Assembly: GCF_001625215.2 (NCBI RefSeq)
Contig: NC_030384.2
Span: forward strand, 42,566,390-42,630,389
DNA: 64,000 bases
Direction: 5' to 3'
From: Daucus carota subsp. sativus
Taxonomy: Eukaryota > Streptophyta > Magnoliopsida > Apiales > Apiaceae
The translations under genes and the position numbers were made by a program. The notes below the pieces were generated by a model. The model worked only from the letters and a program-made list of their open reading frames with translations. It made no database searches and was not told the origin of the DNA. Shown here in pieces: positions 14,401-64,000 of the stretch (within the stretch, counting starts at the first letter, position 1; every line of letters begins with the position of its first letter).

Positions 14401-15310
14401 TAAATCACCCATATGTTACCTCTACAGAAAAGAGTAGTACATTAACAGAATCAGGCTAAACTTACTACAAGAAACCATAGTTACGGTTCAAAGGTGATCG
14501 ATGACATTGTACTCGACTACTTGTGGACCTGAATTTTTGTATTGTATGTTGGTTGTTATAGAGCACTAGCCATCTTGCAATACCTGAACACTATTTTTCT
14601 CGTCCATCTTGGATAAGGAAATGTATTTAAAAAAACTATAAGTGTAGCACTGGATCACTTGGTAACTGGCAGCCTCCCTATAGTTTCACGTAAAGGAAAT
14701 CATTAATAGGATTCACTGCTGATCATTAGTGTAATGAAATATGTATCTTGGTTCTTGCAAGCCTGAGGAGCTACCCTTTAAATTGTCTCCCCTACTCTCT
14801 TTTGTAATTGGAAGATGGAAAACAAAAACTACATTACGTATAAGTGATGTGTTTTGTAATTGTTTGGTGTTTGTGTTTTGTAATTGTTTGGTGTTTGATG
14901 TTCTTGTATGTTCTGCACCATTTTTACGTATTCAAAAATTGAATATTTTCCCCTGAACTTTGTCATTTCAGATCATAAATAGCGACAATGTCCAAGAAGC
15001 AGCAAGAGAAACCGATGGTTACTTTATAAAGAGTTGAATTGTGACAATAATAAAAGATGCTTTGATCCCCTGTGGCACTGTAATCTAAAGGTCTTCTTCT
15101 TGATGTATCCATATTGGACCATATTCATCTCCAACTTGTCAAACTAAGAAGGGGAACCTTCCATTTAAAAAGTGAGCTCAATGTGTATCTCCCCCTCACT
15201 TTAGCAGCGGAAAACATGACTTAGAGAGATTTATGATGTAAAATGCAATTTGTAAGCCGGTTAATTTATTTCTGCTACCTGGGGTTTATATCGGATTTTT
15301 ATTAATATAC
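11479..15310 (+). pseudogene. duplicated, broken AGPase small-subunit gene
   Basis: Colinear with 1476-7216, introns included, so it arose by DNA duplication and not by retrotransposition. It starts inside exon 1 without the ATG and first part of the transit peptide, and exon 1 carries a small internal duplication (11540-11575). Exon 2 (12383-12679) is full length, but the nucleotide loop reads [10 protein letters not shown] (Ala to Asp, 12413-12415) and the following LTKKR reads LLKKR. A deletion of about 1.9 kb joins sequence equivalent to about 3194 with about 5090, removing exons 3-6. Exon 7 (13456-13554) remains; exon 8 (about 14084-14200) has lost its acceptor and first codons; exon 9 (from 14972) has a premature TGA at 15035-15037. 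Loss of the catalytic exons makes enzyme activity impossible; a non-coding role is untested. Confidence 0.93.
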
Positions 15311-26006: not shown

Positions 26007-26233
26007 CTCCCTTTATTTTTTATTATTTGACACTTTGATTTTTCGCACATACTTTTAATTGTTTACCAGGTAGTTAAAATTATTATTTTTGATCAATTTT
26101 TTTTAAATTAAAATTGTGATTATATATTTTTGTTTAGGAAAAAAAATTTAAAATTTATTATTTTTAAGTACATGATCAAAGAATTTAAAAGTGCGTGTCA
26201 AAATCAAAACGCTAAATAATAAAACTGAGGGAG
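26007..26233. mobile_element. Stowaway-like MITE
   Basis: Left CTCCCTTTATTTTTTATTAT and right AATAATAAAACTGAGGGAG are inverted, each bordered by TA (26005-26006 and 26234-26235). About 227 bp. It lies just upstream of the SPEN-type gene's likely promoter. Confidence 0.8.
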
Positions 26234-36793: not shown

Positions 36794-38152
36794 TGAACAG
36801 GGATGCATGCTTGTTGGATTTATTCCAGTTACAATCTTCTTTAATTAGTGATAATCTGATGCTGCTCTGATACTTTACTTTAAGACAAGTCATATTCATT
36901 TATTTGCTGTTAGTAGATTGTAGATATGATATTTCCTGTTAAACTTTTGTTTCTGCAAGACCTTACTGGATTTCAGAGGTTCGGACTAGTTGAAGTTCTG
37001 AGCACAGGGTCAATTCTCTGCGTAAAAGCTGTGTTACCGACTAGGCAATGTCTGTCTGGGTGTAGCATCGGGTAGTTGTGTTCTTTTCTAAGAAAAAACA
37101 AGTGTAACACTGCCCATTTACATCACTCCGTGGTTTCAAACTTTCAGTTAATACGCATTCTGTTCAACTGATGTATATCAGGCGAATTACCAGTTACTCA
37201 TATATGGTTTTACAGTTGCAAAACGCTGCCATTTTATTTCAAATTTATTAATAAATTAAATATTTATTGTTAAGAATTTATATATCTTTTTGGATGATCT
37301 AACATCTGTCTAAGATTCTAAATTAGCTTTATAGCCCGTATGTGGCACATGCAAATTTCAACTTAAAATTTTTCATATATTTGTATACTGGGTGGAAAAA
37401 TGTTATTATATGTTATATTCTGAGCGTAAAACTTTTCACTAGGATATTCCTAACAGAGACGTGAGTTATGTTGTAGAGATGTATTGGAAATGTTGGAAAG
37501 CTTGTAATTATCTCAGAATTTACATTCACAATGTATGTGATTTGATTTTACAGAGAATTCTTCAATCCTCGATAATTGTGGTTTTAAAAAGAGAAGAAAA
37601 CCTCCCATTTTGAGTTGCTACATAAAATGGCACCGTACAAGTCAAGACTTCATATGTTAGGCTACAACAGCTACAGGGAGAAAAAAGGTCTATATCAGCT
37701 GGTGTGGTCAACATTCTAGTTGACAAAATCTGAACCAGCAGTTGCTGATGGAAAAATAGCCAGAGGCCGATTTTAGCCAGCAATATTATTTTCACTAAAT
37801 TCTGTTCAACCAGCATCTAGTCAGACCAAAGGAAGCAAACAATAAATAATCTACGAGTTCTATAACGATATACACTGACATATTAGCAAAACTGTGAAAA
37901 AGGCAAATGATTTGTATTGTATTTCTGAAAACCAACGAGGATAACTAGATTACAGTTCCTTGAACAAGTCTAATAAATCCCAAGATTAACACTATCATCA
38001 GCCAGGTCTGTTTTGACATGGTACAACATGATGTCATGATCTTAAAAGATATATTTCGCAAAAAGATATTGTTCAGAGTAGGAGATTCTCTAATCTGTGC
38101 ACCAAGACGTTTTATTGTCCCGATGATCATTGAGCACTGCTGAGGAAACTTC
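36794..38152. other. convergent 3' flanks of the SPEN-type and TM9SF genes
   Basis: Contains the two 3' UTRs facing each other. From about 37720 the sequence has a counterpart at about 51385 downstream of the second TM9SF copy; this is the left limit of the segmental duplication. No further gene seen. Confidence 0.55.
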
Positions 38153-40126
38153 CTAGTCAATTTTCACCGATGAGAAAAGGTAATGAACAAAGTAAAAGGA
38201 TGTGAGGAAGCCGATCGTGCCGGTAGATAACATAATCGCAATTGCAATGAGCAGTGAGTAGCCAAGATATAAAATCGCTGAGACCGGCCCGCTCAAACTT
38301 TGGAGGTCAAAAACCAAGTAATTAATAGAGTAAAGGAATACATACAGGGCAACAGAACCTGATGCGTAAAATGATTTCCACCACCATTGCCAGTCCTCGA
38401 TGCAGAGATGCATGTAAGTGAGGACCACGGAAACTTCAGCGCACACAGTAACCAACAGCAAGAGAACAACAAGAAGGAATCCAAACACATAATAAAACCT
38501 CCCAAGCCATATGCTAGAAAGAATGAAAAAAAGCTCTATGAAGAGGGTTCCAAATGGGAGGGTTCCAGCACCAAGAACAAGAAGCCATGATGGATACTTG
38601 CTAGCAGGAATCTCTCTTGGAATCTGGTTTGTTCTTACAGGGTACTTGATAGGCTCAGCTCGTGTCCCCAAGTATCCACCCAGCAGGGTAAGAGGAACTG
38701 AAATGCAGAACCACAGAGACAATAGTATAAAATACAGGTATATGGGAATGGCACCGGTACTCTTGCTGCCCCATAGAATGAAGTTTAATGCAGTAAGGAT
38801 GACGAAGGCAATGCCTGGGAAGAAGCAGGCAACTGACCAAGAGACAGACCTCCACCCTTCGGAAGTCCCCTTAATAGTACACCACAAACGTACACCAGCA
38901 TAACCAGCCCCTGTTCCCAAGAAAAGGTAAAGAATAATCATTCCGGTCAACAGCATACCTCGTGAAGCCGGTGACATGAAACCAAATGCAGCAAATACAA
39001 TGGTCACAACAGCCATTCCTGTAATCTGAACTCCATCTCCAATCATCACACATAACAGCTTTGAAAAATTTGGCTCTCTAAACACGTCACCAACAACAAG
39101 CTTCCACCCTGAGAGCTCTTCATTCATTTGTGCCTGAGCTTCTTTGTCCAAGTCCTCATATTTCGTCAGATCTCTCCTGACTGTTCTTAGGAATATAACA
39201 AAAACTATACCAGCTAAGAAGAATATTACCATCAGCGAGTTGAGGATTGAAAACCAGTGGACTCGAGCACCTTCCATTTTGAGATAAGCATCCCACCGGG
39301 ACGGCCACTTGATATCGCTTTTCACAAATTCAACCTCATAAGTAAATGACACTCTTTCTTGCTCCCTTATTATTTGAGACTTTTCTAATTCAAGTGGGCA
39401 GTTTACAGATGTAACATTGTCATATATATGAAGCTTGGTCATCCTTTCAGGATCATACTTCACACTACAAGGCAAAACCTCGAAACCAACAATCTCATAT
39501 CCAGATGCTTTCTTCTTATCAGCTTCAGAGATTACACCCATACCCTCTTCCCCTGTCCCGATTATCTCTACACCAGTCCCTTCATACTCATGAACAAAAA
39601 CTTTGAACTTGAGGTGGTTGATAATGTAATCATCTTGTGAGCTTTGTGGTGTATATCCAACTGGAAAACCAGTCCACTGAATTTTGATCCCATTTTGAGT
39701 GGCAAACCTCATGGCAGGTAAGTTGTCCAGAATCATATTCACTTGATAGAGATCACGTGTTCTCTGTTTTAGGAGCTTCACCTCATTCTCGCTTAATGGC
39801 TTTGTCGTGCAAAGATAAACTGACTCATTAATATTCATACGAAAACGATAAGGAGAATTGTCAATCTGGTCTCCCATGAGTAACTCTCCAAGATTCTCTG
39901 CACTTTTCTTTACCCCACCATGTGGCTGGCAATATGGCAGACTGTAGTAGCTGAAGGGAAGCTCAGTTTCTATAGATGTCAGTGAATTGACTTTAGCAAA
40001 TATTTCCTGACCCGTTGAATATGTGTGCATGTAGCTTCCCGGCAGATAAAATCCATTACAAGAATGTGAGATCAGAAGAACATAGATGAATGCAGCCCAG
40101 TATGTTCTTCCCAATATCAAAGACAT
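38153..40126 (-). CDS. transmembrane 9 superfamily protein (nonaspanin/TMN), copy A
   Basis: Endomembrane (Golgi/endosome) nine-helix protein involved in protein sorting, cell adhesion and metal homeostasis in the families studied. Single exon, 657 aa, the usual length. Residues 1-25 are a signal peptide (cut before FYLPGSY). A lumenal domain of about 250 residues follows with LTSIETELPFSYYSLPYC and ENLGELLMGD, typical of plant TMN11/12-type members. The first helix of the bundle begins at VHWFSILNSLMVIFFLAG, and eight more follow. The C-terminus SSVKID carries the KXD/E signal for Golgi retention and COPI binding. Its neighbour, the SPEN-type gene, converges on it; the Arabidopsis relatives At4g12640 and At4g12650 are, from memory, also adjacent. 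Differs from copy B at about 15 residues by eye. Confidence 0.95.
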   Translation of the reverse strand: MSLILGRTYWAAFIYVLLISHSCNGFYLPGSYMHTYSTGQEIFAKVNSLTSIETELPFSYYSLPYCQPHGGVKKSAENLGELLMGDQIDNSPYRFRMNINESVYLCTTKPLSENEVKLLKQRTRDLYQVNMILDNLPAMRFATQNGIKIQWTGFPVGYTPQSSQDDYIINHLKFKVFVHEYEGTGVEIIGTGEEGMGVISEADKKKASGYEIVGFEVLPCSVKYDPERMTKLHIYDNVTSVNCPLELEKSQIIREQERVSFTYEVEFVKSDIKWPSRWDAYLKMEGARVHWFSILNSLMVIFFLAGIVFVIFLRTVRRDLTKYEDLDKEAQAQMNEELSGWKLVVGDVFREPNFSKLLCVMIGDGVQITGMAVVTIVFAAFGFMSPASRGMLLTGMIILYLFLGTGAGYAGVRLWCTIKGTSEGWRSVSWSVACFFPGIAFVILTALNFILWGSKSTGAIPIYLYFILLSLWFCISVPLTLLGGYLGTRAEPIKYPVRTNQIPREIPASKYPSWLLVLGAGTLPFGTLFIELFFILSSIWLGRFYYVFGFLLVVLLLLVTVCAEVSVVLTYMHLCIEDWQWWWKSFYASGSVALYVFLYSINYLVFDLQSLSGPVSAILYLGYSLLIAIAIMLSTGTIGFLTSFYFVHYLFSSVKID

Positions 40127-41075
40127 CTTCCTTGGTTCTAAATCCTCTATATACTTGACACCTCTAAGCCAATATTGCCAGCTTAAGCAAAAAACTGCAT
40201 ATAGAATAAGTAACAGTTAGCGGTGCATGTACTGATATCTAGCTCCCCAAAAATGCTCTGACTATGGGGTGTATAAACAGCGGATGGTTTAGGTTTGATT
40301 TAACCGCTAAAATGTCAGCCGTTGGGTATCTGGAAATGATTTCAAGTAATAAAAGTTTAATCTGAATTACAAACCCTTGTAAATTTAAAAAAATTTATAT
40401 AACTAAAACCTAGATCTCTGATTCCATTTCTTTCTCACAAGCCTAATTTTATTTTTCTCCCATCCTGCTGTTTGTCTCAACTCTCATAGTGCTTTGTCTC
40501 TGTCTCTCTAACACGTCATGTCAAGCTTAAACTTTAAAATCTATCTTGCAGATCATCCGCTAGCACCTTATATAAGTTATCCTAATGACTAAACATCTGT
40601 ATCTTGGTATATCTTTAAAAAGTAATCCCTTGCAACAACTAGCTTTAGGCATCATGAGATTTAATGGATATTTGACTATCTGGATTTGATTCGTTGTATA
40701 CGCTATTGGGCGCTACACATTTAGTATCACCTGTAAGTTGTAACAGGGATCTACTTTTGCAAGTCATTCAGTGAGTGAGATTTAATTTGTGCATAACTTG
40801 TGTTTCAATTTAATTAAAATTATCTCACATAAATTATCTTTAAGTCTTTATTTCCCTGAATTTGGCCCTTTTGGATCCAAGTAGTTTTCTAAACTTTTGT
40901 TTTAATGTGCATTTCATTTCATAGTAAATTACCCCTAATAAAATCAAAATCATGTACTGAATAAACTTGCAATTGAAGGTCTTTTGAAAAATTTATAATC
41001 ACATGAACAAAATAAGGTATTTTTTCCCATTAACAAAAGGTATTCTTTAATTTAACTAGATAGTAATATCTGAAG
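40127..41075. other. upstream flank of TM9SF copy A
   Basis: Colinear with 53848-55135 of the second unit apart from small gaps; the other copy has about 190 bp extra after about 54385 and about 160 bp extra after about 54812. No gene seen. The promoter, or a 5' leader intron, may lie here. Confidence 0.5.
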
Positions 41076-41195
41076 GGGTGATGGGTAGCCTAGTAATAGA
41101 GTCTTTTTTCATGTCTTAGGTTCAATTCTCCCTCACTCGACAATTATCTCAGCATGTATACTACTCTATGAGCTTATAAGCACAAAAAAAAAAAT
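41076..41195 (+). mobile_element. tRNA-derived SINE-like element, copy A
   Basis: TAGCCTAGTAATAGAG resembles a polymerase III A box, GGTTCAATTC at 41119-41128 a B box, and the unit ends in CACAAAAAAAAAAA. The same unit is at 55136-55257, so insertion came before the segmental duplication. It does not fold as a full tRNA. Target duplication not resolved. Confidence 0.6.
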
Positions 41196-41597
41196 GATGA
41201 TTTAAGATACCACAACAGTGGCACATCCCATATAACTCAATAAGCTAGCAATTGGAAGATGTGCAATTTGAACAAATATATAGTCGTAACAGGTTGCAGA
41301 TCACACAGATACTAGCGATGTTTGTAAAAATGAGGCTGTTGTGCTTTTTTAGCTGCATGACTTACTAAAACAAGAAACAGATCTCCGAAATGCATGAAGA
41401 TCGTGGTATAGAGTGCATCCCGTGCTAAATTGTCGTTTTCTCTAGTATTTTGTTTTGGCCATCACCTAGGTGAAAGATAAATACCATGTTTTAATAACAA
41501 CTATCTAAATAAACACACATTATTACGATTTAAACAGTCAGATTCCCCTATGAAGTTAGTTTTAAATTGTGTCCGACTGGTTAAACGCATTAATAAG

Positions 41598-41784
41598 CGG
41601 GGCGGATCTAGAAAGAGGCATGGGGGGGCAGGTTCCTACCCTAAAATTGTTTTTTTTTTACATTTTTTCACCATTCTAAATTTTGCAAAATTATATATGT
41701 GCCCCCACAAAATTTAAAAATATATAGGTGTTTCCCGATAATTTGCTTGGTGCCCCCAAAGTTTGAATCCTAGATCCGCCCCTG
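41598..41784. mobile_element. hAT-like MITE with 8-bp target duplication
   Basis: 187 bp with inverted ends CGGGGCGGATCTAG and CTAGATCCGCCCCTG. It is flanked on both sides by TTAATAAG (41590-41597 and 41785-41792), the 8-bp duplication typical of hAT elements. The second unit (near 55650) has the uninterrupted site GCATTAAGAAGGAGTC, so this is an insertion after the duplication. No coding capacity. Confidence 0.93.
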
Positions 41785-42317
41785 TTAATAAGGAGTCAAA
41801 ATTTCATTAAACATAGGCCAACGCCTAATAGGCTGTGTAATAGGCACATGACTTATCATAACCTAGTTCACCACGAAATCAGAGAGAAAAATATGGTTAA
41901 CCAATTAAATCTACCGCTTAAAGCCACCTAATTAGATTCCTAACCCCTAAACCTAGCCTAGAGCAAAACTCCGAAAGACGGCCAAAATATACAACTATTG
42001 GATATTTAGGGAAGCAAAAGAGCCAAAGAGGTATACGGCCATGAAGACAGTATTGTATCTAACAATCTGCAAAAAACAATTCAACTAAACAAAGTATGCT
42101 TGAATAACCCCCAACAAGAGATGCATAGTGTAGAGCAGATCACAAAACAGTAATAACACACAAACAAGCAAATAATTTAGAAAATCAAATACACAAAACA
42201 AAGCAATTAATATTATCCAGTAAATGAAAAGGTGAAATGAATACACGATGCGAAGTGATGCAACGACTGTGTATAGTTTAAGTTAGCAAGTTCTGTACAG
42301 ATCCATATTACTAAGTA

Positions 42318-42358
42318 GTTACAGAGAGAGAGAGAGAGTACCAGAGAGAGAGAGAGAT
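42318..42358. repeat. GA/CT tract upstream of TM9SF copy A
   Basis: Two GA runs separated by TACC, preserved at the same relative place in copy B (about 56203-56236). Lies 2.2 kb upstream of the ATG; it may mark a distal promoter or a 5' leader exon on the minus strand. Confidence 0.7.
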
Positions 42359-42609
42359 GGATGTTGTAGATAGCAGGCAAGAAGAGACTTTTTGCTGATA
42401 AAACACGGAGAAATAGTATTGCTACCACTCTCTGCACATATTTGTTGATGAAATTACACGAAAAGTAATAACGGATCTTTTAGATCTGGAATATAATATT
42501 TTTCCCCTTCTTTTAATAAATATAAACTATTTGAGTCGATAAGATTTCCCGGTGATAAGCCGGATGACATTCATTCGTTAAAAAAAATACTCTTTAATTC
42601 TGTTTTAAT

Positions 42610-43254
42610 TAATTTTTAACTTTTTACAAAAATATCTAAATCATCAAAAAAAATATTATATAAATCTCGATTAAGTATCACAAAATCTTAAAAATAATTT
42701 AAGTTATTCATTAATGGTTTTTTTTACATAAATATCCAAGCCTAGAAATTTTCTAAGCTTAAAATATTTTAAAATTCTAAGTTATCATTATCTATGATGT
42801 GGACTATCAAAACTTTTTAATGAATAATCCTTTTTTGAAGTATTTTGATGAATATTCTTAAATCTCAGATGGACAATCCAATTCATCGAATCACCCCAGT
42901 GTAGATATCACCGACTTTAAAAATATTTAACTTTTTAAATTCTAATGTCATTAAAACAAGTTTCTAATCTATTGATTTTAATTTAAGTTGAATTTTTTTA
43001 ATTTTGTGAATTATCATTTTTGTTGAGAAGGAGCTGAATACACAGCCAAAAAACATAAATATGCGTTTCCTTCGACCGGATCCATTGTCAGACAACACAA
43101 AGTATGTAAATAATATAATTAACATGTGAAATAACAAAACTCGACTGCCCTGATCATCTGAATATAAAAATGCAACTCTGACTGGTGCAAAAACTTTTGG
43201 AGCAACTCAGACCGCCAAGAGGTGAGTTAGTATTTTAAAAAGAGGAAATATAAA
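42610..43254. other. AT-rich DNA beyond the end of close similarity between the two units
   Basis: Similarity to unit B fades near 42610 (equivalent to about 56450). No gene recognised. Confidence 0.4.
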
Positions 43255-44329
43255 GAGCTATTAACCAAAAAACCCAATAAATTTGTCATTTTTTTGCCAA
43301 AAAATCTTTAAACTTTTCTCTTCACTAACAACTCCAACAAACTTTATTAAAATCATATAAAAAAATACAAAACAAACCATGGTTAAATATTTTATAATCT
43401 GGGTTGTCAAGTATCTCTCCATGATTTGTATCTTTTTATACACGTGTGTGCCACATAACGCCTATTCATTACACGTGTCTACCACATCATGTCTATTCAG
43501 TAATAATTTATCTTTTAATCATTTATAATATTTTAATTAATTTTATAAACTCAAAGAAGATCCGAGGGTTTTTTATCTCTGTCCTAGTATGTGGGTTTCT
43601 TGTCATCTGAATCAGGAGTTGTCTTTGCTGGGATTAGGGCTGTATAAAAATCTTCCGCAGACAAGAAATTGACCTTCTTCTTCTCTTCCCTATCAACCAA
43701 GATTCTTAATCATTGTTAGGCTTCAAAATTACAGTCCACACTGGATTAATTTGTCAGACTAATTTGTCAGACGACACAGATGGTGGGAACTTAACATGAT
43801 GCTCAACAAACTCTTCGGTCTTGGGGTTTTTACGCTTCAAAACGAAATGGCCCTTGTTTGTAACTCGATGTTTATGAGGGCCAAACGTAATAGAGTAAGG
43901 AGATTCATTGTCAAATCCTTTGGCTACCCAAACAGCCTCCTGAGGTCCTGACCAGATAAAAATCAGTTGTATCTGAAGCTTTACTACACAGAGAACAAGA
44001 GGTCGTGGTGCAAATATAATATCTGGACACCAAAATGCTACCTAGGTGATGTTTTGGCGGTCCTCTAGTCTTATGAGGCTTGAGTAAAAAATTTATTTAT
44101 TTTTTTTATGTTTTGATTAATTGTAATCATATTGCCACGTAAGATTTGTGATGATCATGGTTGGTCCACGTCAGCTATAATTAACTCTAGTTAAATTTTT
44201 TTCAAAAATTGAGTAAAGTTTAATGAGGTTGTTAAGGAAAAAAAAAGTTTAAAGGTTTATTGGCAAAAAAGTTTAAAGGTTTATTGGCAAAAAAATGACA
44301 TGTTAGTTGGATTTTTTGGTTAATATCTC
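43255..44329. mobile_element. Mutator-like (MULE) non-autonomous element with captured sequence
   Basis: Long imperfect inverted ends: left GAGCTATTAACCAAAAAACC, and right (read inward on the other strand) GAGATATTAACCAAAAAATC; both continue for about 60 bp into TTTGCCAA and CTTTAAACTTTT. The flanks are the identical 9-mer AAATATAAA (43246-43254 and 44330-44338), the 9-bp duplication expected of Mutator elements. The right arm has a 25-bp tandem duplication (about 44247-44296). No transposase is seen; the interior holds a protein-like open frame on the minus strand. Confidence 0.9.
43754..44041 (-). pseudogene. protein-like open frame captured inside the MULE, unidentified
   Basis: After an acceptor-like CCTAG, the minus strand stays open for about 95 codons to TGA at 43754-43756, without an ATG near its start. 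It encodes a hydrophobic opening (PLVLCVVKLQIQLIFIW), then a folded-looking stretch with WVAKGFDNESPYSITFGPHK and NKGHFVLKRKNPKTEEFVEH. Base composition is clearly richer in GC than the AT-rich surroundings, as expected for captured exon sequence. I do not recognise the parent gene. It may be a transduplicated exon (Pack-MULE); whether it is expressed is unknown. Confidence 0.5.
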
Positions 44330-44759: not shown

Positions 44760-44945
44760 CTATAAAATACAGTAATACACTTTTAAAATTAGAAAAATAA
44801 CTTCTTTTTTTGAAACGAGAAAAATAATTTCTTTCAAAAAAATCATATGCAAACAGTGTTTCTCAAAACGACAAATACTTTTCTACACAAGTTCATTAAA
44901 AATAAAAAATCAAGTGTCAACTTATAAAACTACACACTCATGAAT
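44760..44945. other. segment shared with 62840-62995 (left shoulder of Lhca3 flank)
   Basis: AATCATATGCAAACAGTGTT and CAAAACGACAAATAC-type words match the stretch lying directly before Lhca3 copy B. In unit A this segment is separated from Lhca3 by about 4.4 kb of extra DNA. Confidence 0.7.
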
Positions 44946-49033: not shown

Positions 49034-49455
49034 GTTAGACACCTTATGATTATGATCTAGATATACTCACTACTGTTTAATATTATTTATAGACACTATC
49101 ATTGAAGGAGATATGTGATATGCAAGTATAATATCAAGTCTGTCATTTGAATGTGATACAGGGAGTTTCCTATATACGTTTTTGAAGTTGCTGCTATAAT
49201 TATATTAGGTGTTGTGAAAATGCAGTTGATGTTTGGTTGCATTATAAACAACTCCTTTTCCCTTACATGGCTAGTTTGTGATGACGAAAACCCTATCTTA
49301 AGACATAACTTACTGACATAGATTATTTAAATATTCTCAAATTCAAACTAAATAGACTTGTGGAAAATATGCCCGCGGTAGTTGGGCACACTTCCTAGTA
49401 TGAGATAAAATTGACAAGGTGGTAAATTCACAATGTGGGTTTAAGTTCCAGAGTT

Positions 49456-50556
49456 CTAGTGGAACTTAAGGCTAGTCAAGACATTGTTGTTAACAGGATC
49501 AGCCAAATGGTCCAGAAGGTTTTGAAGTGGTCCAACTCCTGTGACCAAAGCTTGGATGAAGTAACCCAATATTGCCAACATAGCAAGTCTCCCATTCTTA
49601 ACCTCCTTTAACTTGAGCTCTTTCATGGATTTCTCGTCTTTTCCGAATCCAAGAGGATTAAAAAATGGGCCTCCAGGGTATGCTGGGTCTCCGGATCCAG
49701 CTAGGCCTTTCTCTAAGCCCAAGAAATATTGTTTTCCCATTGATCCTGGATTGTACCAGTCTTGTAATCTCCTGTGCTCTGCAAATCCCATGAGAGCCAT
49801 TTCTAGGACAAAGAGTGTGTAGCCATCAGCCCAGTAGTTGTAAGTTCCTGCTGGAGGAATGACTCCTGTTTGGAACCATGGCAAGGCTGTTTCAGCTGGA
49901 ATGAGCCCAAGTTTTCCCAAAATCTCAGGGGCTATAGCTCCTGCTGCACCCAACATGGCAAAACGACCATTGATGATCTCTCCATAGGCTAGCCATTTGG
50001 GCTCGATGAATCCTCCGGTTCCTTCAGGGTCGGAAAGTCCCAAGGGGTCAAAACCAAAGTCGCCTGGAAGGCTGTGTAAGCATTGTCATGATCAGCAATC
50101 AGTAAAACATGTTCTTTGCATGCATGCGTAGCTCCCAAAATAACAAGAAAAAAAAGACTAGTTGTAGACTGCCCAGTAGTAGTTAGTTACCTGCCATCCA
50201 AGTAAGAAAGGCTCTGTTTAGAAGCAAACCACAATTGTCTGTCTCCTTGCTGAAAAGCATGTAACAATATGTTGTTAATTTAACTAGGAATATGAGAAAT
50301 TTAAGTTGATATCTTCTTGTAAGGTGAAAATTTGTATAAAGTTTGTTCGGATTATTAATTCAACATGCACATTTAATTCATATAGAGATATGTGACATGT
50401 GAGTGAAGTTACCTTAACAGGTGGAGTGGAAGCAGCCTTGACAACGAAGGAAACTTTCTGGGATGAAGATTGTGCTGGTCTTGCAGCAAAGATCTGCCTT
50501 GCAGCTTCCGCAGAAGAGGTGATCGATGAAGATGACAGCACTGGTACTGTAGCCAT
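49456..50556 (-). CDS. LHCA3: photosystem I chlorophyll a/b-binding protein Lhca3, copy A
   Basis: Thylakoid antenna protein that binds chlorophyll a/b and carotenoids and passes energy to photosystem I. Three exons on the minus strand: 50556-50413, 50249-50191, 50071-49456, joined to 272 aa (Arabidopsis Lhca3 is 273). Residues 1 to about 45 are the chloroplast transit peptide (Ser/Ala-rich, ending near VSFVVKAAS). Helix 1 contains EIINGRFAM, with Asn102 where most Lhc proteins have His; this Asn ligand gives the far-red-absorbing chlorophylls of Lhca3/Lhca4. Helix 2 is around [17 protein letters not shown]; helix 3 has EVKNGRLAM (224-232). The C-terminus ends [10 protein letters not shown]. 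The part of the protein visible from Leu78 on is identical to copy B. An ORF extending upstream to 50685 is leader sequence, not part of the protein. Confidence 0.97.
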
Positions 50557-51384
50557 CTCACTTGTGTACCGTATCGAGATGAGCAGTTGGGTGCTCAAAA
50601 AATTGGGTTTGGAGGAATAGAGAAACAAGCTAGTGCTGGAAACAAATGAAATCAAGTGCTGCAAATAAGGGGAATGGCCAGCCACATATTTGCGCGTGGG
50701 CCTGATGGATAGTTTGTGGAGGAGATGAGGGAGGTATATTTTGGATCAGGTTATATTCCAATCATATTTGCACAACTGGCATTTATTTATCAGATATCTA
50801 GCCTCTATATCCTATTTCCTATTTCAGTGACTTGGATTTGCCATCTTACTGGACTCTGAGATTCTTTGTGAATGAAGTCAAATACTCAAATTTATATGTT
50901 TTAGATCTAATATCAGATCACCCAACTACCAGCATAATTCAGATTAGCTTCTTGACATGAACAGTTTATACATTTCCAATATGAGGTCCATTAAGGCAGC
51001 AACATATCTAAACTAAACCACTAGAAACACACACTCATTGTTGTAATGTATCGATTATAAGTACATTCTGTGTAAGTTCTTGGATCTGCTGTTTTTTTTG
51101 GTTATCATGCAATAATTCGTTCAGCCTGACTGATGTATTATCTATACAACCTCAAAAAAAAATATAATCCAAGGTCGCAAATCAATTGCAAATTTATATC
51201 TACAAGTCCTAGACATGGATATTGGAATATATAGATAATCATCTAAAAAGTTGGTACTAATCAACATGCGCTACGATCAGCGCCGACCCTGAAGTTTACA
51301 GTTTGAAACATTAAAACATTAAGAATGTCTTAATTTAATCAAGAATGTCTTAATGTTTCAAACTGTAAAGGAATGTCTTCTGTT
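50557..51384. other. Lhca3 copy A promoter region and spacer
   Basis: Leader and promoter of the light-harvesting gene on the minus strand should lie in the first few hundred bases; no single TATA or I-box was fixed with confidence. A short inverted repeat around AATGTCTTAATTTAATCAAG and TTAAAACATTAAG lies at 51300-51370. The next duplication unit begins near 51385. Confidence 0.45.
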
Positions 51385-51873
51385 CACCAAACCTGAACCA
51401 GCGGTTGCTGATGGAAAATAGCGGTGACAGAATATTAGCCAGCAATATTATTTTTACTAAATTCTGTGTAACCAGCATTTAGCCAGACTTGAGGAATATA
51501 GCAAATAACATATAATCTATGAGTTGTATGATGATATATATTGACATATTAGCAATACTGTGAAAAGGCAAATAATTTGTATTGTATTTCTGAAAACCAA
51601 CAACGAGGATAACTAGATTACAGTTGTTTGAACAAGTCTAATAAATCCCAAGATCAACTCTATCACAGTATATATTCTTTAAGAGGCAAGAAAATTAAAG
51701 GAGATTTTTGCACCACTCATCAGCCAAGTCTCTTTTGACATGGTACAACATGATGTCATGATCTTAAAAGATATATTTAGCTAAAAATATTGTTCAGAGT
51801 AGGAGATTCTCTAATCTGTGCACCAAGACGTTTTATTGTCCCGATGATCATTGAGCACTGCTGAGGGAACTTC

Positions 51874-53847
51874 CTAGTCAATTTTCACCGATGAGAAAAG
51901 GTAATGAACAAAGTAAAAGGATGTGAGGAAGCCGATCGTGCCGGTAGATAACATAATCGCAATTGCAATGAGCAGTGAGTAGCCAAGATATAAAATCGCT
52001 GAGACCGGCCCGCTCAAACTTTGGAGGTCAAACACCAAGTAATTAATAGAGTAAAGGAATACATACAGGGCAACAGAACCTGATGCGTAAAATGATTTCC
52101 ACCACCATTGCCAGTCCTCAATGCAGAGATGCATGTAAGTGAGGACCACAGAAACTTCAGCGCACACCGTAACCAACAGCAAGAGAACAACAAAAAGGAA
52201 TCCAAACACATAATAAAACCTTCCAAGCCATATGCTAGAAAGAATGAAAAAAAGCTCTATGAAAAGGGTTCCAAATGGGAGCGTTCCAGCACCAAGAACA
52301 AGGAGCCATGATGGATACTTGCGAGCAGGAATCTCTCTTGGAATCTGGTTTGTTCTTACAGGATACTTGATATGCTCAGCTCGTGTCCCCAAGTATCCAC
52401 CCAGCAGGGTGAGAGGAACTGAAATGCAGAACCACAGAGACAATAGTATAAAATACAAGTATATGGGAATGGCACCGGTACTCTTGCTGCCCCATAGAAT
52501 GAAGTTTAATGCAGTAAGGATGACGAAGGCAATGCCTGGGAAGAAGCAAGCAACTGACCAAGAGACAGACCTCCACCCTTCTGAAGTCCCCTTAATAGTA
52601 CACCACAAACGTACACCAGCATAACCAGCCCCTGTTCCCAAGAAAAGGTAAAGAATAATCATTCCGGTCAACAGCATACCTCGGGAAGCCGGTGACATGA
52701 AACCCAATGCAGCAAATACAATGGTCACAACAGCCATTCCTGTAATCTGAACTCCATCTCCAATCATCACACATAATAGCTTTGAAAAGTTTGGCTCTCT
52801 AAACACATCACCAACAACAAGCTTCCACCCAGAGAGCTCTTCATTCATTTGTGCCTGAGCTTCTTTGTCCAAGTCCTCATATTTCGTCAGATCTCTCCTG
52901 ACTGTTCTTAGGAATATAACAAAAACTATACCAGCTAAGAAGGATATTACCATCAGCGAGTTGAGGATTGAAAACCAGTGGACTCGAGCACCTTCCATTT
53001 TGAGATAAGCATCCCACCGGGACGGCCACTTAATATCGCTCTTCACAAATTCAACCTCATAAGTAAATGACACTCTTTCTTGCTCGCTTATTATTTGAGA
53101 CTTCTCTAATTCAAGTGGGCAGTTTACAGATGTAACATTGTCATATATATGAAGCTTAGTCATCCTTTCAGGATCATACTTCACACTACAAGGAAAAACC
53201 TCGAAACCAACAATCTCATATCCAGATGCTTTCTTCTTATCAGCTTCAGAGATTACACCCATACCCTCTTCCCCTGTCCCGATTATCTCTACACCAGTCC
53301 CTTCATACTCATGAACAAAAACTTTGAACTTGAGGTGGTTGATGATGTAATCATCTTGTGATCTTGGTGGTGTATATCCAACTGGAAAACCAGTCCACTG
53401 AACATTGATCCCATTTTGAGCGGCAAACCTCATGGCAGGTAAATTGTCCAGAATCATATTCACTTGATAGAGATCACGTGTTCTCTGTTTTAGGAGCTTC
53501 ACCTCATTCTCGCTTAATGGCTTTGTCGTGCAAAGATAAACTGACTCATTAATATTCATACGAAAACGATAAGGAGAATTGTCAATCTGGTCGCCCATGA
53601 GTAACTCTCCAAGATTCTCTGCACTTTTTTTTACCCCACCTTGAGGCTTGCAATATGGTAGACTGTAGTAGCTGAAGGGAAGCTCAGTTTCTATAGATGT
53701 CAGTGAATTGACTTTAGCAAATATTTCCTGACCTGTTGAATATGTGTGCATGTAGCTTCCCGGCAGGTAAAATCCATTACAAGAATGTGAGATCAGAAGA
53801 ACATAGATGAATGCAGCCCAGTATGTTCTTCCCAATAATAACGACAT
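51874..53847 (-). CDS. transmembrane 9 superfamily protein (nonaspanin/TMN), copy B
   Basis: Second copy of the single-exon 657-aa TM9SF gene, on the same strand as copy A. Signal peptide (1-25), lumenal domain, nine-helix bundle and C-terminal KID are all intact and no frame break is seen. By eye about 15 substitutions separate the two proteins, among them I4L, L-to-F in VGFEVLPCS, R-to-S in IIREQE, F-to-S in the first bundle helix and S-to-R in IPASKYPSW. The open, full-length frame and scattered, mostly conservative changes suggest both copies have been kept under selection. DNA similarity extends beyond the gene on both sides (about 51385 to 56450). Confidence 0.95.
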   Translation of the reverse strand: MSLLLGRTYWAAFIYVLLISHSCNGFYLPGSYMHTYSTGQEIFAKVNSLTSIETELPFSYYSLPYCKPQGGVKKSAENLGELLMGDQIDNSPYRFRMNINESVYLCTTKPLSENEVKLLKQRTRDLYQVNMILDNLPAMRFAAQNGINVQWTGFPVGYTPPRSQDDYIINHLKFKVFVHEYEGTGVEIIGTGEEGMGVISEADKKKASGYEIVGFEVFPCSVKYDPERMTKLHIYDNVTSVNCPLELEKSQIISEQERVSFTYEVEFVKSDIKWPSRWDAYLKMEGARVHWFSILNSLMVISFLAGIVFVIFLRTVRRDLTKYEDLDKEAQAQMNEELSGWKLVVGDVFREPNFSKLLCVMIGDGVQITGMAVVTIVFAALGFMSPASRGMLLTGMIILYLFLGTGAGYAGVRLWCTIKGTSEGWRSVSWSVACFFPGIAFVILTALNFILWGSKSTGAIPIYLYFILLSLWFCISVPLTLLGGYLGTRAEHIKYPVRTNQIPREIPARKYPSWLLVLGAGTLPFGTLFIELFFILSSIWLGRFYYVFGFLFVVLLLLVTVCAEVSVVLTYMHLCIEDWQWWWKSFYASGSVALYVFLYSINYLVFDLQSLSGPVSAILYLGYSLLIAIAIMLSTGTIGFLTSFYFVHYLFSSVKID

Positions 53848-55135
53848 CGTCCTTCGTTCTAAATCCTCTATATAATTGACACCTCTAAGCCAATATTGCC
53901 AGCTTAAGCAAAAACTGCATATAGAATAAGTAACAGTTAGCGGTGCATGTACTGATATCTAACTCCCCAAAATGCTCTGACTTTTGGGTATATAAACACC
54001 GGATGGCCTTGGTTTGATTAAACTGGTAAAATGTTAGGTATCTGGAAATAATTTTAAGCAATAAAAGTTTAATCTGAATTACAAACCCTTATAAGATTAA
54101 AAACTAAATTTGTATAACTTCAACTTAGATCTCTGATTCCATTTCTTTCTCACACGCCTAATTCTAAATTTCTCCCATCCTTCTGTTCATCTTAAATCTC
54201 ATAGTGCTTTGTGTGTCTCTCCAATACGGCTTGTCAAGCTAAACTTTAAAGTCTGTGTTGCAGATCATCCTCTATCAGACTATCACCTTATATAAGAACT
54301 CTTATCCTGATCTAACATCTGTATCCTGGTATATCTTTAAAAAGTAATACCTTGCAACAACTAGCTTTGGGCATCATGAGATTTCAGAATATTTACACAT
54401 AATTTAGCCTTTAGTGGCTGAAAAACAATCTTTAAGAAAACCTTTGTTCGTCTTAACTCTCATAGTGCTTTGTCTCTGTCAGTGAATATTTACACATGGT
54501 TTAGTTTCTTGAGTCTACCCTATCAGACTGCGGTGCAATTTTACTGTTATTCCCACTATTTAATGGATATTTGACTATCTGAATTTGAGTCGTATACTCT
54601 ATTGGGCGCTGCACATTTAGTATCACTTTTAACAGGGATCTACTATTGTAATGTCATTCAGTGAGTGAGATTTAAATTGTGCATAATTTATGTTTCAATT
54701 TTATTAATATTATCTGACACAAATTATTTTTCAGTCGTTATTTCCCTAAATTTGGCCCTTTTGGATACAATTGGTTTTCCAAACTTTTGTTTTAATGTTC
54801 ATTTCATGTTATTTATATGATCTAATCAAGCAGAAAATTAAGGACTTCCAATTTTTCAGCAGCCAAAAAGAATTTCAAGTGCAGTATGTGTAAAGTACAA
54901 TTTCTTTATGTGAACAAACAAAAGAAAAATATTTCAAAAATGACGATGAAAATAAGCATGAATCTGAAATAATATAAATTCAAAGTAAATTACCCGTAAT
55001 AAAATCAAAAGCCTATACTGAATAAACTTGCAATTGAAGGTCTTCTAAAAAAATTTATAATCACATAAACAAAATAAGGTATTTTTCCCATTAACAAAAG
55101 GAATTCTTTTATATAACTGAAAAATTATATGCGAA
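53848..55135. other. upstream flank of TM9SF copy B
   Basis: Matches the flank of copy A except for two stretches present only here, about 54385-54560 and 54812-54975. The first includes a partial repeat of nearby words (CTCATAGTGCTTTGT occurs twice), so it looks like a local duplication. No gene seen. Confidence 0.5.
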
Positions 55136-55257
55136 GGGGGTGATGGGATATCCTAGTAGTAGAGTCTCTTTCCATGTCTTAGGTTCAATTCTCCCTCGCT
55201 CGACAATTATCTCAGCATGGATACTACTCTATGAGCTTATAAGCACAAACAAAAAAG
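55136..55257 (+). mobile_element. tRNA-derived SINE-like element, copy B
   Basis: Counterpart of 41076-41195, with B-box-like GGTTCAATTC at 55182-55191 and the tail CACAAACAAAAAAG. Confidence 0.6.
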
Positions 55258-56202
55258 ATGATTTAAGATACCACAACAGTGGCACATCCCATATAACTCA
55301 ATAAGCTAGCAATTGGAAGATGTGCATTTTGAACAAATATATAGTCATAACAGGTTGCAGATCACGCAGATACTAGCGATGTTGGTAAAACTGAGGCTGT
55401 TGTGCTTTTTTAGCTGCATGACTTGCTAAAACAAGAAACAGATCTCCCAAATGCATGAAGATCGTGGCATAAAGTGCATCCCGTGCTAAATTGTCGTTTC
55501 TTCTAGTATTTTGTTTTGGGATCACCTAGGTGAAAGATAAATACCATGTTTTAAAAATAACTATCTAAATAAACACACATTTACTACGATTTAAACAGCC
55601 AGATTCCCCTATGAAGTTAGTTTTAAATTGTGTCCGACTGGCTAAACGCATTAAGAAGGAGTCACAATTTCATTAAACATACGCCAACGCCTGGTAGGCT
55701 GTGTAATAGGCGCATGACTTATGTTAACCTAGTTCACCACGAAACCAGAGAGACAAATATGGTGAACTAATTAAATCTACCGCTTAAAGCCGCCTGATTA
55801 GATTCCGAGTCTCTAAACCTAGCCTAGAACAAAACTCCAAAGACAAAAAAGAAAAAAAAACTATTGGATACTTAGGAAAGCAGAAGAGGTGTACGGTCAT
55901 GAAGACAATATTGTATATAACCTGCGGAAAACAATTCCACTAAACAAAATACGCTTGAATAGCCACAACAAGAGATGCATAGTGTAGAGAAGATCACAAA
56001 ACAGCAAAAACACACAAACAATCAAACAATTTACAAAATCAAATACATAAAACAAAACAATTAATATTATCAGTAAATGAAAAGGTGAGATCAAGACACG
56101 ATGCAAAGGGTTGCAACGACTGTGTATTGTTTAAGTTACAAAGTTCTGTACAAATCCATGTGTGGCAGTGAACATATATTGCTAAGTATCCACACACACA
56201 CG

Positions 56203-56236
56203 CGGAGAGAGAGAGAGAGAGAGTACCAGAGAGAGA
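56203..56236. repeat. CA/GA tract upstream of TM9SF copy B
   Basis: CACACACACACG followed by GAGAGA runs and TACCAGAGAGAGATGG, at the place matching 42318-42358. Confidence 0.7.
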
Positions 56237-56449
56237 TGGATGTTGTAGATCTGAGGCACGAAGAGAATTTTTGCTGATAGGATACGGAGTACCAGCATTA
56301 ATACCGGTCTCAAGTCTCAACACATTTGTTGATGAAATTACACGAAAAGTAACGATGGATCTTTCAGATCTGGAATATGAGCCCCAGTGCTAAGCCGGAT
56401 GACATTCATTCATTCGATAATGAATACTCTCTTTTTCTGTTTTCTGGTT

Positions 56450-57763
56450 TTTAATATTCTGACATGTATATTAAATTAAAATATAAAGTATAATAATCGC
56501 TGTCAATAACAAAATTCAATTTTTTTATAAAATAAAATTTAGATCTAGATTTTTATGCAATATGATTATATATATAATTTTAATAAATATCTTAAATTAT
56601 GTAACAAAATCAACTATATCTAAATATAACACATTATATACTGTCTCTTCAGAGTCAAAAAATATTATCTCAATATTAAATTAATTCTTATCGATATTCT
56701 GTACAATTGAGGATTATTTTCATTTTGGTCTGAATGGAGAACTATGATCTCTTAATTTTTTTATTTTTTTCGGTCAGAATATACATTAAATAAATTTTTT
56801 ATTACAAGATAATATTAGCAAATATTTTAAGACAACAATAAAGTTCAGTATCAAGTTAAGAACATTCTTTTCAAAAACATTCTGAGTTGCACAAATTTTT
56901 TTTTTTTTTTAAATATCGATTTCCAAAAAAATAATCAAAAATATGATTTGCAATTGTTAAAACTTTATCTGTAACTCATCAACCAAAATCAATTTCAAAA
57001 ATAAGAACATTTATTTGCATTTTTTTTTTTTGACAAAATGCAAATTCATTCCATTAAATTAAAACAAGTCTAATCGGGACAAATCCCCAACTGACAATGC
57101 AATCAGGTGGATAAACAATAAAACGAGCTAAACAAATAGCTGCATTGTTTCCAGACTGCTTAACACATTGAATCCAAGGATTCTTGAAATTGAAAATGAA
57201 TACAAAGGCTTCTCGAGTAATCCAGCCTACATCAATTCCGAAAATGGTAGCTTCACAATTGACCTTCACAATAGTTCCATGGCTGTTGCGGTGTTCAGAC
57301 CATTCAGTTGTAAAAACTAAGCATCGAAGAACAAGAGTCCTCGAGTGCATTCTCATCTCTTCCTTCTCCCGAGAGATACTCTTTACATAGAGTTACATAA
57401 TACACCACTATATATCATCAATTTTATTATAAATTCTATTATAGAATACATATAAATGTGATTCTAATATATAATACTATAACATATATATTTTTTAAGT
57501 AATCTAATACTTAAAATTTGATGAAAAAATATATTTTCGAAACTGATTCTACAACAGAATAATTCTGGATGATTTTATTCTATTACAGAATCATGTCGAG
57601 ATATTGCATAAATTTAGATGATTTTTGGAAGAAAAAGATTGTATTACTTCGTTTCGGTTTAATAATCAAAATTTATAATTATATTTCATAAAAAATATAA
57701 TAGATAATATATTATGTGCATATTTATAATGGTGTGCTACGTAACTCCATATAAGAGGGTATA
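56450..57763. other. AT-rich DNA between the units' shared part and the ankyrin gene
   Basis: Mostly AT-rich. A GC-richer patch at about 57055-57380 has a minus-strand open frame (57054-57356, about 100 aa) with CVKQSGNNAAICLARFIVYP, which resembles the RNase H-like domain found at the end of plant LINE-type retroelements (weak, by eye). Nothing else was recognised. Confidence 0.35.
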
Positions 57764-58385: not shown

Positions 58386-59874
58386 TTATTTCGGTTCGTG
58401 TTGAGGCTGGGTTTGGGACAATGGAGGCATCTTTTTCTTGTTGCTAGCCCTCGTTGTTTTAAATCTCCTCACCGTGAAGCGGCAAAGACGAAAAAGAACA
58501 ACCAATACGGCAATGACCATCAAGAACAACCATGAATACAGTCCAATTCTAACTGTTTTAAGTGTTCGGTTATTCTGATTATATTTTGGGGTGGTGGCTC
58601 TAACTGCAGCCTCGTAGGCGAAAATCATGGCTGACAGAGTTATCCACATTGAACCGCGAATAGACCAGATGAAAAGCTTCTGCTTCAGACTTGCACCGCT
58701 CACATACAAAAAGATTACACTCAGAGCAGCTATAAAGGAGATGGTGTTGAATACCCAAAATGCATTACTCACTGATGCGGAGAAGTAGGCGAGAAGGGAG
58801 CTTCCAGGTGCAAGAAAATAACTAAAATACCAAGGGTCACTGACTGAATAACTTGCGGCATCCATTGAAGCAACACCACCGGGAGGGCTAATAGCTGATG
58901 TGTAAGCCATTGCGGCTATGACAGATGCTGCTACCAGTAATGTCTCATCTTTTGTTTCCATTCTGTCCTGAGATAAGGTCATTTTTTTTACCTTCTTGGC
59001 GATGTTTAACAGCTTATTATAGGTCCCAGTGCCTACTACTTCTTCTTGGGTGTTTTTAGTACCAGCTGAGACAAGAAGCTCCTTAATTTCCATGCTTTTT
59101 ACATCTTTAAGCATCTCCTCTATTGTGCCCAAAGCCGTGAGACCTTTTTTATTTTTTACATTTATCTCGGCTTCACTTCTATTTGCTATCAGGTACTTTA
59201 CTATCTGCTTTAGACGAATACAATTATAAGTAAATTTAGTTTAACTTATAATTATTACATCAAAAAATTCTCAGCTAAACACAGTAACACAGAAATTGTA
59301 CCTGCATACGTCGTAAACCTGCAGCATAATGCAGAATAGTGTTACCATCCTCATCTTTAACGTCCGACAAATCCATGGGGTTCTTGTCTAAAACAAGAAT
59401 CAGAACATCCAAACGATTATACATAACACACATGTGCAATACTGTATCAAGTCCTTGATCATTAGACTCCGAAAGGGCTTTCATCAATTCGTCAACACAA
59501 TCATATTGGCCATTCATCACAGCCAAATTGAGAGGGGTCCTTTCGTCCTCATCAGGAACACTGCACATTTTCTCATTGTGCAGCAGCAACAGTTTAACGA
59601 TGTTCGCATATCCGTTTGCAGATGCCAAATGAAGAGCAGAACAACCTTGTGAATCTAATCTGTTTGCAAAATCAGGCTTGTGAGAGAGAAGGGATTTAGC
59701 AAACTCAAAGTGACCTAACATAGAAGCAAGATGCAAGGGTGTTTGGTTAAAGCAAGAAGATATCGAAACTCGAGCAAGAGTGAGTTCATCTTCTCGCATC
59801 AGTGCCTCCAATGTCTCTGCGTCTCCTTTCACGCATGCACCATAAAGCTTCTTGTCCATTGCCTCACTATTCAT
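58386..59874 (-). CDS. ankyrin-repeat membrane protein with PGG domain (ACD6/ITN1-like)
   Basis: Plant-specific membrane protein class linked to salicylic-acid defence and salt/ABA responses. Two exons: 59874-59302 (191 codons) and 59204-58386 (272 codons plus stop), 463 aa. The start MNSEAMDKKLYGACVKGD fits the family's N-terminus. About five ankyrin repeats follow (QTPLHLASMLGHFEFAKSLL, SALHLASANGYANIVKLLL, RTPLNLAVMNGQYDCVDELM, TVLHMCVMYNRLDVLILVL, NTILHYAAGLRRMQ) and the last runs across the intron into IVKYLIANRS. The PGG domain begins with KDETLLVAASVIAAMAYTSA and PPGG at 298-301; four membrane helices lie in 265-450 and the tail is Lys/Gln-rich. It is shorter than ACD6 (about 670 aa). 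It is present only in unit B of the segmental duplication. Its physiological role is not shown by the sequence. Confidence 0.9.
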
Positions 59875-60462
59875 ACCTCGTATTTCTCTGCATATAGTAT
59901 TTATTCAAGATGTTACAATTGATTTTAAGCAACTAAAAGTTAATATATGAACGCACAAACGAAAATAAGTAACTTAATTAGTCTAGAATGTTAGATGGGA
60001 TTTTACCTGTGAAGTATAACTACTAACTAGAATTGAGTGCACTGAAATCGGAGGGTACGTAAAGGGTAAAGTTGTGATGCCTTCAGAACGTCCTCTTGGC
60101 AGGACATTTATAGGGTTCTATTTTTATTTTTATTTTCTTTCCGAAGATGTATACGGGATACGGACAAGGATGCGTTAGGTAGGAATATTTTATATATTTA
60201 TTATTTTAACAACTAAAGTGCATAAAACATACATTTGACATTTAAATTAGAATTTTATTTTGTGATAAATTTTTACGTTTGTTGCTCAGTAATTTAAAAA
60301 TATTTAAAATAATATCTGTGATAATATCTTGCCAAACTAATATAAGGAATATTATGCATCTTATATTTTGATAGAATTTATGTACTCTGTTGTAACTGTA
60401 GATTTTTGCCTTGTATATTTTGTTAGTGAAAGAATTTTACAGAATGATTTGCTTAATTAGTA
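59875..60462. other. promoter side of the ankyrin gene
   Basis: Likely promoter and leader of the minus-strand ankyrin gene in the first 250 bp, then AT-rich DNA. No clear motif fixed. Confidence 0.4.
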
Positions 60463-60770
60463 CTCCCTCTGTACCTCTCATTTCTTTACAGTTACTATTT
60501 TGGGATGTCCCTCTCATTTCTTTACGTTACTATAAATAGTAAGTTTTTCTCATCATTACACCCACTATCTTCCTCCACTATCTCATATTTAACAATAAAA
60601 ACTACTATTACACCCACTACTTTTCTCCACTATCTCAAATCTACTATTAAATATTGGTAGGCCGGTCCCACCATTTTACCCACTTTTCATCTAACTTTAC
60701 TTATTTTTCATACATTGTCTTGGTCTCCGTGTCCCCCTCCAATGTAAACAAATGAGGGGGACGGAGGGAG
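60463..60770 (-). mobile_element. Stowaway-like MITE, first of an inverted pair
   Basis: 308 bp, starts CTCCCTCTGTACCTCTC and ends GAGGGGGACGGAGGGAG, with TA at 60461-60462 and 60771-60772. The interior contains TGGTCTCCGTGTCC, the reverse complement of the same motif in the next element. Confidence 0.88.
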
Positions 60771-60932
60771 TACTATTTTAAAGGGTTTTTACAGCATGAT
60801 TTGCTTAGTATTATTTGTATATTTTCAAATTTCAACTCGGAGAAGAGATAGATATAAGGGCACGATAATGTTAGGTACGAACCATGAATTTCTCATTTAA
60901 TGCGTGAAATACAGACAAGGTCATGTTAGGTA

Positions 60933-61244
60933 CTCCCTCCGTCCCAATAGGTAGTATACATTTGGTGTGGACACGGAGACCAAGAAAAAGTGTAAAAAAT
61001 GAGTAAAGTTAGATGAAAAGTGAGTAAAGTGGCGGGACCCATTTATATTTAATTATAGATGTGTGATAGTGGGGGAAAGTAGTGGGTGTAATAGTGTTTA
61101 TATTATTATAAAATGAAGATAGTGGAAGAAAGTAGTTAGTGTAATAGTGTTTTACATTATTAAAAGTTGCTATTTTAGGAATGTATAGAAATGATGGGAC
61201 GTCCCAAAGAGGAAATCGTATAGAAATGACCGGGACGGAGGGAG
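60933..61244 (+). mobile_element. Stowaway-like MITE, second of an inverted pair
   Basis: 312 bp, starts CTCCCTCCGTCCCAATAGG and ends GACCGGGACGGAGGGAG, with TA at 60931-60932 and 61245-61246. Same family as 60463-60770 but in opposite orientation, 160 bp away. Confidence 0.9.
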
Positions 61245-61777
61245 TATACCACATCCACAAGTGGTAAGCAGATGTAACAGTACAAATTGGGTGGTAACCC
61301 TAAAATATTTATTGCTTCACGGTTAATAACCAAAAAAATTACTATGATCAATTGGTAGTTGGATCATCCAACAAAAAAACTTATAAACAGAACTAGATTT
61401 AACTTGTAATCAATTAACAGAATTAATAAAAATTTACATTTAGGTAAATGTCGTTAGCGCACAGCCGTTAAATATCAGTTGACTTTAACAAAATCTAATA
61501 AAAATTTGAAAAACATATAATAAAAAAATATAAATTTGAATTTTTTATAAAAAAATTTAAAAAATCTGAACACTTCAAAAATCTGAAAATTTTTAAAAAA
61601 ACTTTATAAATTAAGGATTTTTTGAAAAATAAGAAAAATGTAAAGACTTTGAAAAAGCTAAAAATTCTGGGGGAGAAAAATTAAAACTTCGAAAAAATCG
61701 TGAAAATTTGAGTGGAAAAGATTAAAACTTAAAAAATCTGATTATTTTTTTAAGTGAATAAACGGTAATTTTCAAAT
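61245..61777. other. A-rich spacer
   Basis: Very A-rich with many AAAATTTGAAAAA words. No gene seen. Confidence 0.4.
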
Positions 61778-62995: not shown

Positions 62996-63081
62996 AAAGT
63001 CTGCACAAGATGCAAAAATCAGATAAATCTGAAAAGGTGGTAAATTCACAATGTGCGTTTAGGACTTTAGGTTCCAGAGTT

Positions 63082-64000
63082 CTAGTGGAACTTGAGGCTA
63101 GTCAAGACATTATTGTTAACTGGATCAGCCAAATGGTCCAGAAGGTTTTGAAGTGGTCCAACGCCTGTGACCAAAGCTTGGATGAAGTAACCCAATATTG
63201 CCAACATAGCAAGTCTCCCATTCTTAACCTCCTTTAACTTGAGCTCTTTCATGGATTTCTCATCTTTTCCGAATCCAAGAGGATTGAAAAATGGGCCTCC
63301 AGGGTATGCTGGGTCTCCGGATCCAGCCAGGCCTTTCTCTAAGCCCAAGAAGTATTGTTTTCCCATTGATCCTGGATTGTACCAGTCTTGTAATCTCCTG
63401 TGCTCTGCAAATCCCATGAGAGCCATTTCTAGGACAAAGAGTGTGTAGCCATCAGCCCAGTAGTTGTAAGTTCCTGCTGGAGGAATGACTCCTGTTTGGA
63501 ACCATGGCAAGGCTGTTTCAGCTGGAATGAGCCCAAGTTTTCCCAAAATCTCAGGGGCTATAGCTCCTGCTGCACCCAACATGGCAAAACGACCATTGAT
63601 TATCTCTCCGTAGGCTAGCCATTTGGGCTCGATGAATCCTCCGGTTCCTTCAGGGTCGGAAAGTCCCAAGGGGTCGAATCCAAAGTCACCTGGAAGGCTG
63701 TGTAAGCATTGTCATGATCAGCAATCAGTAAATAAACATGTTCTTCGCATGCATGCCTAGTAGTGTAATTAGTTAATAGTTACCTGCCATCTAAGTAAGA
63801 AAGGCTCTGTTTAGAAGCAAACCACAATTGTCTGTCTCCTTGCTGAAAACCATATAACAATAAGTTGTTAATTTAACCAGTAATATGAGAAATTTAACTT
63901 AATATTAATGCACATTTATTGATATAGAGATGTGTGAGTGAAGTTACCTTAACAGGTGGAGTGGAAGCTGCCTTGACAGCGAAGGAAACTTTCCGGGATG
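63082..64000 (-). CDS. LHCA3: photosystem I chlorophyll a/b-binding protein Lhca3, copy B (5' end beyond the window)
   Basis: Exons 63697-63082 and 63842-63784 are complete, and exon 1 is seen from 63948 to the window edge (last ~18 codons of the transit-peptide exon). Lengths and phases equal those of copy A. From Leu78 to the C-terminus the protein is identical to copy A although silent base changes are present. In the visible transit-peptide part, [12 protein letters not shown] replaces [12 protein letters not shown]. The Asn ligand in EIINGRFAM and the helix 3 motif EVKNGRLAM are kept. Two active Lhca3 copies in tandem would raise gene dosage; expression cannot be judged here. Confidence 0.96.

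Follow-up and report, generated by a model that had tools for sequence, protein, structure and literature searches.

A probable Pack-MULE carrying a decayed calnexin fragment in the carrot genome

Pack-MULEs described from rice, Arabidopsis and tomato are alike in combining the ends of a Mutator-like element (MULE) and a 9-bp duplication with a host gene fragment in the interior and no detected transposase. MULE target site duplications (TSDs) are about 9 bp long, whereas CACTA elements are characterized by CACTA ends and a 3-bp target duplication. According to the portion of a 2026 review consulted here (PMC13317346), parts of more than 1,000 genes are found in over 3,000 Pack-MULEs of rice, and gene fragments that have been captured are as a rule pseudogenes without function, although numerous ones are expressed. 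In excerpts of PMC3310237, the most abundant size of tomato Pack-MULEs is given as 1,000-1,200 bp, and MULEs with tandem terminal inverted repeats (TIRs) are described. Host coding DNA between inverted ends is also found in Pack-TYPE elements outside the MULE superfamily, among them the Pack-CACTA elements treated in the part of PMC8903248 that we consulted.

The element analyzed here occupies positions 43255-44329 of a 64-kb window of carrot DNA (the whole stretch of 64,000 nucleotides under analysis) and, at 1,075 bp, lies within the tomato size range. It differs from Pack-CACTA in having a 9-bp duplication and ends that start with GAG, which fit a MULE, and in the absence of CACTA ends and of a 3-bp duplication; compared with known Pack-MULEs, its captured gene is a calnexin. 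Because inverted ends and an exact 9-bp duplication enclose an interior with similarity to a host gene family, and none of its open pieces of at least 25 amino acids gives a Pfam transposase match, we consider it highly probable that this is a non-autonomous MULE of the Pack-MULE type carrying a decayed calnexin piece from a host gene. Within this reading, it is solely the ends and the target duplication that point to MULEs.

Boundaries and composition of the element

The inverted ends are 63 bp long and align without gaps at 55 of 63 positions (87%); they also pair with one another when the element is compared with the window by blastn (Table 1). Ends of this length are short relative to the classical long TIRs of MULEs. 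An exact 9-bp duplication, AAATATAAA, abuts both of them. As a test against chance, pairs of identical 9-mers with a spacing of 400-4,000 bp were collected from the window and the 63 bp inside each pair were scored as inverted repeats, giving a sample of 2,588 pairs in which overlapping 9-mers are counted apart. The AAATATAAA pair ranks first, and the runner-up reaches 32 of 63 positions. The initial annotation had proposed a complete element with imperfect inverted ends of about 60 bp and an exact 9-bp target duplication, and both parts of that proposal are borne out by these comparisons.

Two further repeats lie toward the ends of the element. The right end contains a short tandem repeat (24 bp, 2.2 copies) of its own inner part, in which it resembles the tandem-TIR MULEs of the PMC3310237 excerpts but differs from them in that the repetition is confined to a short inner portion at one end and does not comprise a whole TIR. 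The adjoining subterminal 31-bp stretches near the left end are not clearly beyond chance, as 25 of 31 identities between adjacent 31-mers are reached at four start positions in the window.

With 36-43% G+C, the interior segments of 43550-44090 exceed both the ends and subterminal regions (24-26%) and the 1-kb flanks (26-29%), as would be expected of captured exon DNA. There are 23 open pieces of at least 25 amino acids in the element, two of which are calnexin. The other 21 were scanned with Pfam at E values up to 1, and none reached the Pfam cutoff, so that neither a transposase nor a second captured gene was detected among them. For 19 of the 21 no family was returned even at this threshold. 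The remaining two gave matches far below the cutoff to families other than transposases, COQ9_N (E 0.064) and LRR_12 (E 0.22), which we take to be chance and reject as signs of a second captured gene. The earlier statement that no transposase lies inside the element therefore agrees with the Pfam results for open pieces of this length.

Table 1. Features of the element and its borders (window positions).
Feature	Positions	Strand	Evidence
Left TSD copy, AAATATAAA	43246-43254		Sequence
Left terminal inverted repeat, start GAGCTATTAACCAAAAAA	43255-43317	+	55/63 identical to right end; blastn E 7e-14
Two adjoining 31-bp subterminal stretches, start CACGTG, 25/31 identical	43441-43502	+	Sequence comparison
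Calnexin part 2 (LRILVDREEKKK...DDKKP), other frame	43593-43709	-	PF00262 profile 177-213, E 0.0047, 16.3 bits
13-bp perfect tandem duplication at end of part 1, frame-breaking	43747-43772	-	TRF
Calnexin part 1 (GPQEAVWVAKGFDNESPYSITFGP...SSDKL)	43760-43948	-	PF00262 profile 108-162 over ~43760-43924; PDB calnexins
Stretch upstream of calnexin part 1, with ...TTTTTATCTGGTCAG last; possibly the end of a captured intron, acceptor included	43949-44041	-	Sequence; intron reading by inference
24-bp tandem repeat, 2.2 copies, 100% matches; duplicates inner part of right inverted end	44241-44294	-	TRF
Right terminal inverted repeat, inward reading GAGATATTAACCAAAAAA	44267-44329	-	blastn and ungapped comparison
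Right TSD copy, AAATATAAA	44330-44338		Sequence

A calnexin fragment in the interior

The minus strand of the interior holds an open frame of 95 codons at 43757-44041 (43754-44041 in the initial annotation, which counts the stop codon too). That annotation had described these codons as looking like a real protein segment and suggested a protein search; the frame is real, and the search in Pfam and the PDB leads to the calnexin family, although only the later part of the frame is protein-like in this sense, the upstream portion, to 44041, having no match to any Pfam family. Within an 89-amino acid piece, residues 34-88 match the Calreticulin family PF00262 with an E value of 4e-10 and a score of 39.6 bits (cutoff 25). 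A 63-amino acid piece matches the same family with an E value of 2.3e-10. Among PDB entries, two distinct sequences are found at E values up to 0.001, and both are calnexins (E 4.4e-06 and 6.9e-06). By these matches the captured protein is a fragment of calnexin, an endoplasmic-reticulum chaperone, which contradicts the earlier suggestion that it could be undescribed.

The PDB is the sole protein collection with named relatives behind this identification. When the 63-amino acid piece is compared with it at E values up to 10, three sequences are returned: the two calnexins and a ribosomal protein (0.67). Because these are the only matches and no calreticulin is among them, calnexin is the likely source and calreticulin is not favored.

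The similarity to calnexin runs beyond the 95-codon frame, to about 43590, where it is weaker and lies in a different frame. This second part, LRILVDREEKKKVNFLSAEDFYTALIPAKTTPDSDDKKP, falls under the 25-bit cutoff for PF00262 when taken alone, and it also gives a weaker, chance-level match to DUF2783 (E 0.27). We accept it as calnexin despite its score because its strand and the order of the profile positions agree with those of part 1. The first 8 residues of part 1 were assigned from what we take to be the plant calnexin sequence, from which we also presume that homology extends upstream to GPQEA and downstream past KKP.

As the piece stands, the calnexin domain cannot be encoded, because part 1 ends in a 13-bp tandem duplication that breaks the frame, part 2 continues in a frame other than that of part 1, and the piece is interrupted by stop codons. 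Most likely, then, the calnexin piece makes no protein, and we infer that it lacks function. The same lesions contradict the idea of a host exon preserved as an intact coding segment.

On the minus strand just ahead of part 1 stands TTTTTATCTGGTCAG, followed by GACCTCAGGAGGCT, an arrangement that resembles the end of an intron. If TTTTTATCTGGTCAG does mark an intron end, the captured template was genomic DNA rather than cDNA, and a genomic origin is what this stretch suggests as probable.

Copies and surroundings in the window

We found no other copy of both element ends within the 64-kb window. Partial, AT-rich matches are present in the blastn comparison, for example at 26066-26159 (69%, E 2e-4) and 42585-42688 (65%, E 0.001). 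There is likewise no second calnexin-like place in the window, where the best remaining tblastn match has an E value of 0.21, and no empty site, the joined flanks matching only their own place. The end pattern has no matches in viral and prokaryotic contig collections, and the calnexin piece has three pattern matches in the viral contigs with no confirmed relatives among them; as these are collections of other organisms, the negatives carry almost no weight.

The element lies near a long direct duplication, 37714-42660 and 51378-56495, whose copies are 13.7-14.1 kb apart and carry two EMP70-family genes (assigned by Pfam for the first copy) at 38.2-40.2 and 51.9-54.0 kb. Both EMP70 frames are open, with 687 and 694 amino acids from stop to stop, and the longest aligned stretch of the duplication is 2.7 kb at 95% identity. 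Two copies of a chlorophyll a/b-binding protein gene (again by Pfam of the first copy), at 49400-50465 and 63018-64000, are separated by a similar ∼13.6 kb and have aligned pieces that are 88-96% identical. Apparently they form part of that duplicated block as well, and the inserts in between differ. Adjoining frames with a PGG domain and ankyrin repeats are found at 58386-59904, within the stretch in which the second duplicated copy departs from the first. Collinear alignment between the two copies of the block tails off near 42660/56495 and picks up again at 44774/62843. The insertion point is left uncovered, so that the block speaks neither for nor against a recent insertion.

Elsewhere in the window, a nucleotidyl transferase gene, which we take to be that of the ADP-glucose pyrophosphorylase small subunit, is duplicated at 1531-7215 and 11553-15308, with aligned pieces 88-91% identical; the copies flank an AP2-domain gene at 9871-11034, and the second is without a counterpart of about 3193-5085 of the first. 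An element of about 790 bp at 60461-61246 has long imperfect inverted arms, ends in TACTCCCTCTGTACC and TACTCCCTCCGTCCC, and in our estimation resembles a Stowaway-type MITE. Two pairs of dispersed repeats, 221-386/22422-22587 and 25386-25576/45223-45425, are ∼79-80% identical.

Origin of the captured piece and its significance

The main features of the interior could be read in other ways. One is that the open frame belongs to the element's own coding sequence, with no host capture, and the frame does sit between the ends and runs for 95 open codons. However, it is protein-like in part only, the similarity crosses into another frame, and what it matches above the Pfam cutoff is calnexin, a host chaperone family; because of that match we regard an element-own origin as very unlikely, with hardly any weight left to it. 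It might instead be supposed that a calnexin pseudogene was in place first and was later bracketed by MULE ends, the piece never having been mobilized as one unit. That the window gave neither an empty site nor a second copy would suit such a history, but a single pair of inverted ends encloses the piece and a single target duplication matches on both sides, which is the trace that one insertion of the whole unit would leave, and we judge this order of events highly improbable.

A different kind of alternative accepts the capture and assigns it a role, with the parent calnexin gene dampened by small RNAs or antisense RNA from the calnexin piece, as in a regulatory Pack-MULE. The piece is indeed calnexin-like by its PF00262 match, and TIR promoters are said, in the excerpts of PMC3310237, to drive expression of Pack-MULE interiors. 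The piece is nonetheless decayed and the element shows nothing specific to regulation, and we therefore view such a role as unlikely. It is also very unlikely that transcription of the element turns the calnexin piece into small RNAs, or into a spliced chimeric exon, with an effect on the expression of calnexin or of a neighboring gene.

The best interpretation remains a Pack-MULE, as first proposed together with transduplication of a host exon; the PF00262 match inside inverted ends and a 9-bp duplication, with no transposase match, supports that proposal. Before its insertion here, the element would have acquired a segment of a host calnexin gene in the form of genomic DNA, probably the end of an intron together with exon sequence that encodes part of the calnexin/calreticulin domain. 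It would then have been moved in trans by a MULE transposase encoded elsewhere, its insertion generating the 9-bp duplication, and the calnexin piece would have decayed afterwards through tandem duplication, frame changes and stops.

Our literature search returned no paper combining Pack-MULE and calnexin or transduplication and calnexin, and none combining calnexin and Mutator-like among the matches listed. One paper, on a lectin superfamily (PMC2846932), contains both Pack-MULE and calreticulin. The capture of calnexin by a Pack-MULE may thus be unreported in the literature searched, whereas the capture of gene fragments by Pack-MULEs is already well known, and the element fits the picture of such captures given in the consulted portion of PMC13317346. 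What it adds is one well-bounded case of gene-fragment capture by a MULE-like element in a genome marked as a plant's by the chlorophyll a/b-binding and AP2-domain genes of the window, with a donor family, calnexin, that can be identified. Its value is that of a catalogue entry, which would become a datable case if the parent gene were retrieved, and it leaves ideas about the capture process unchanged.
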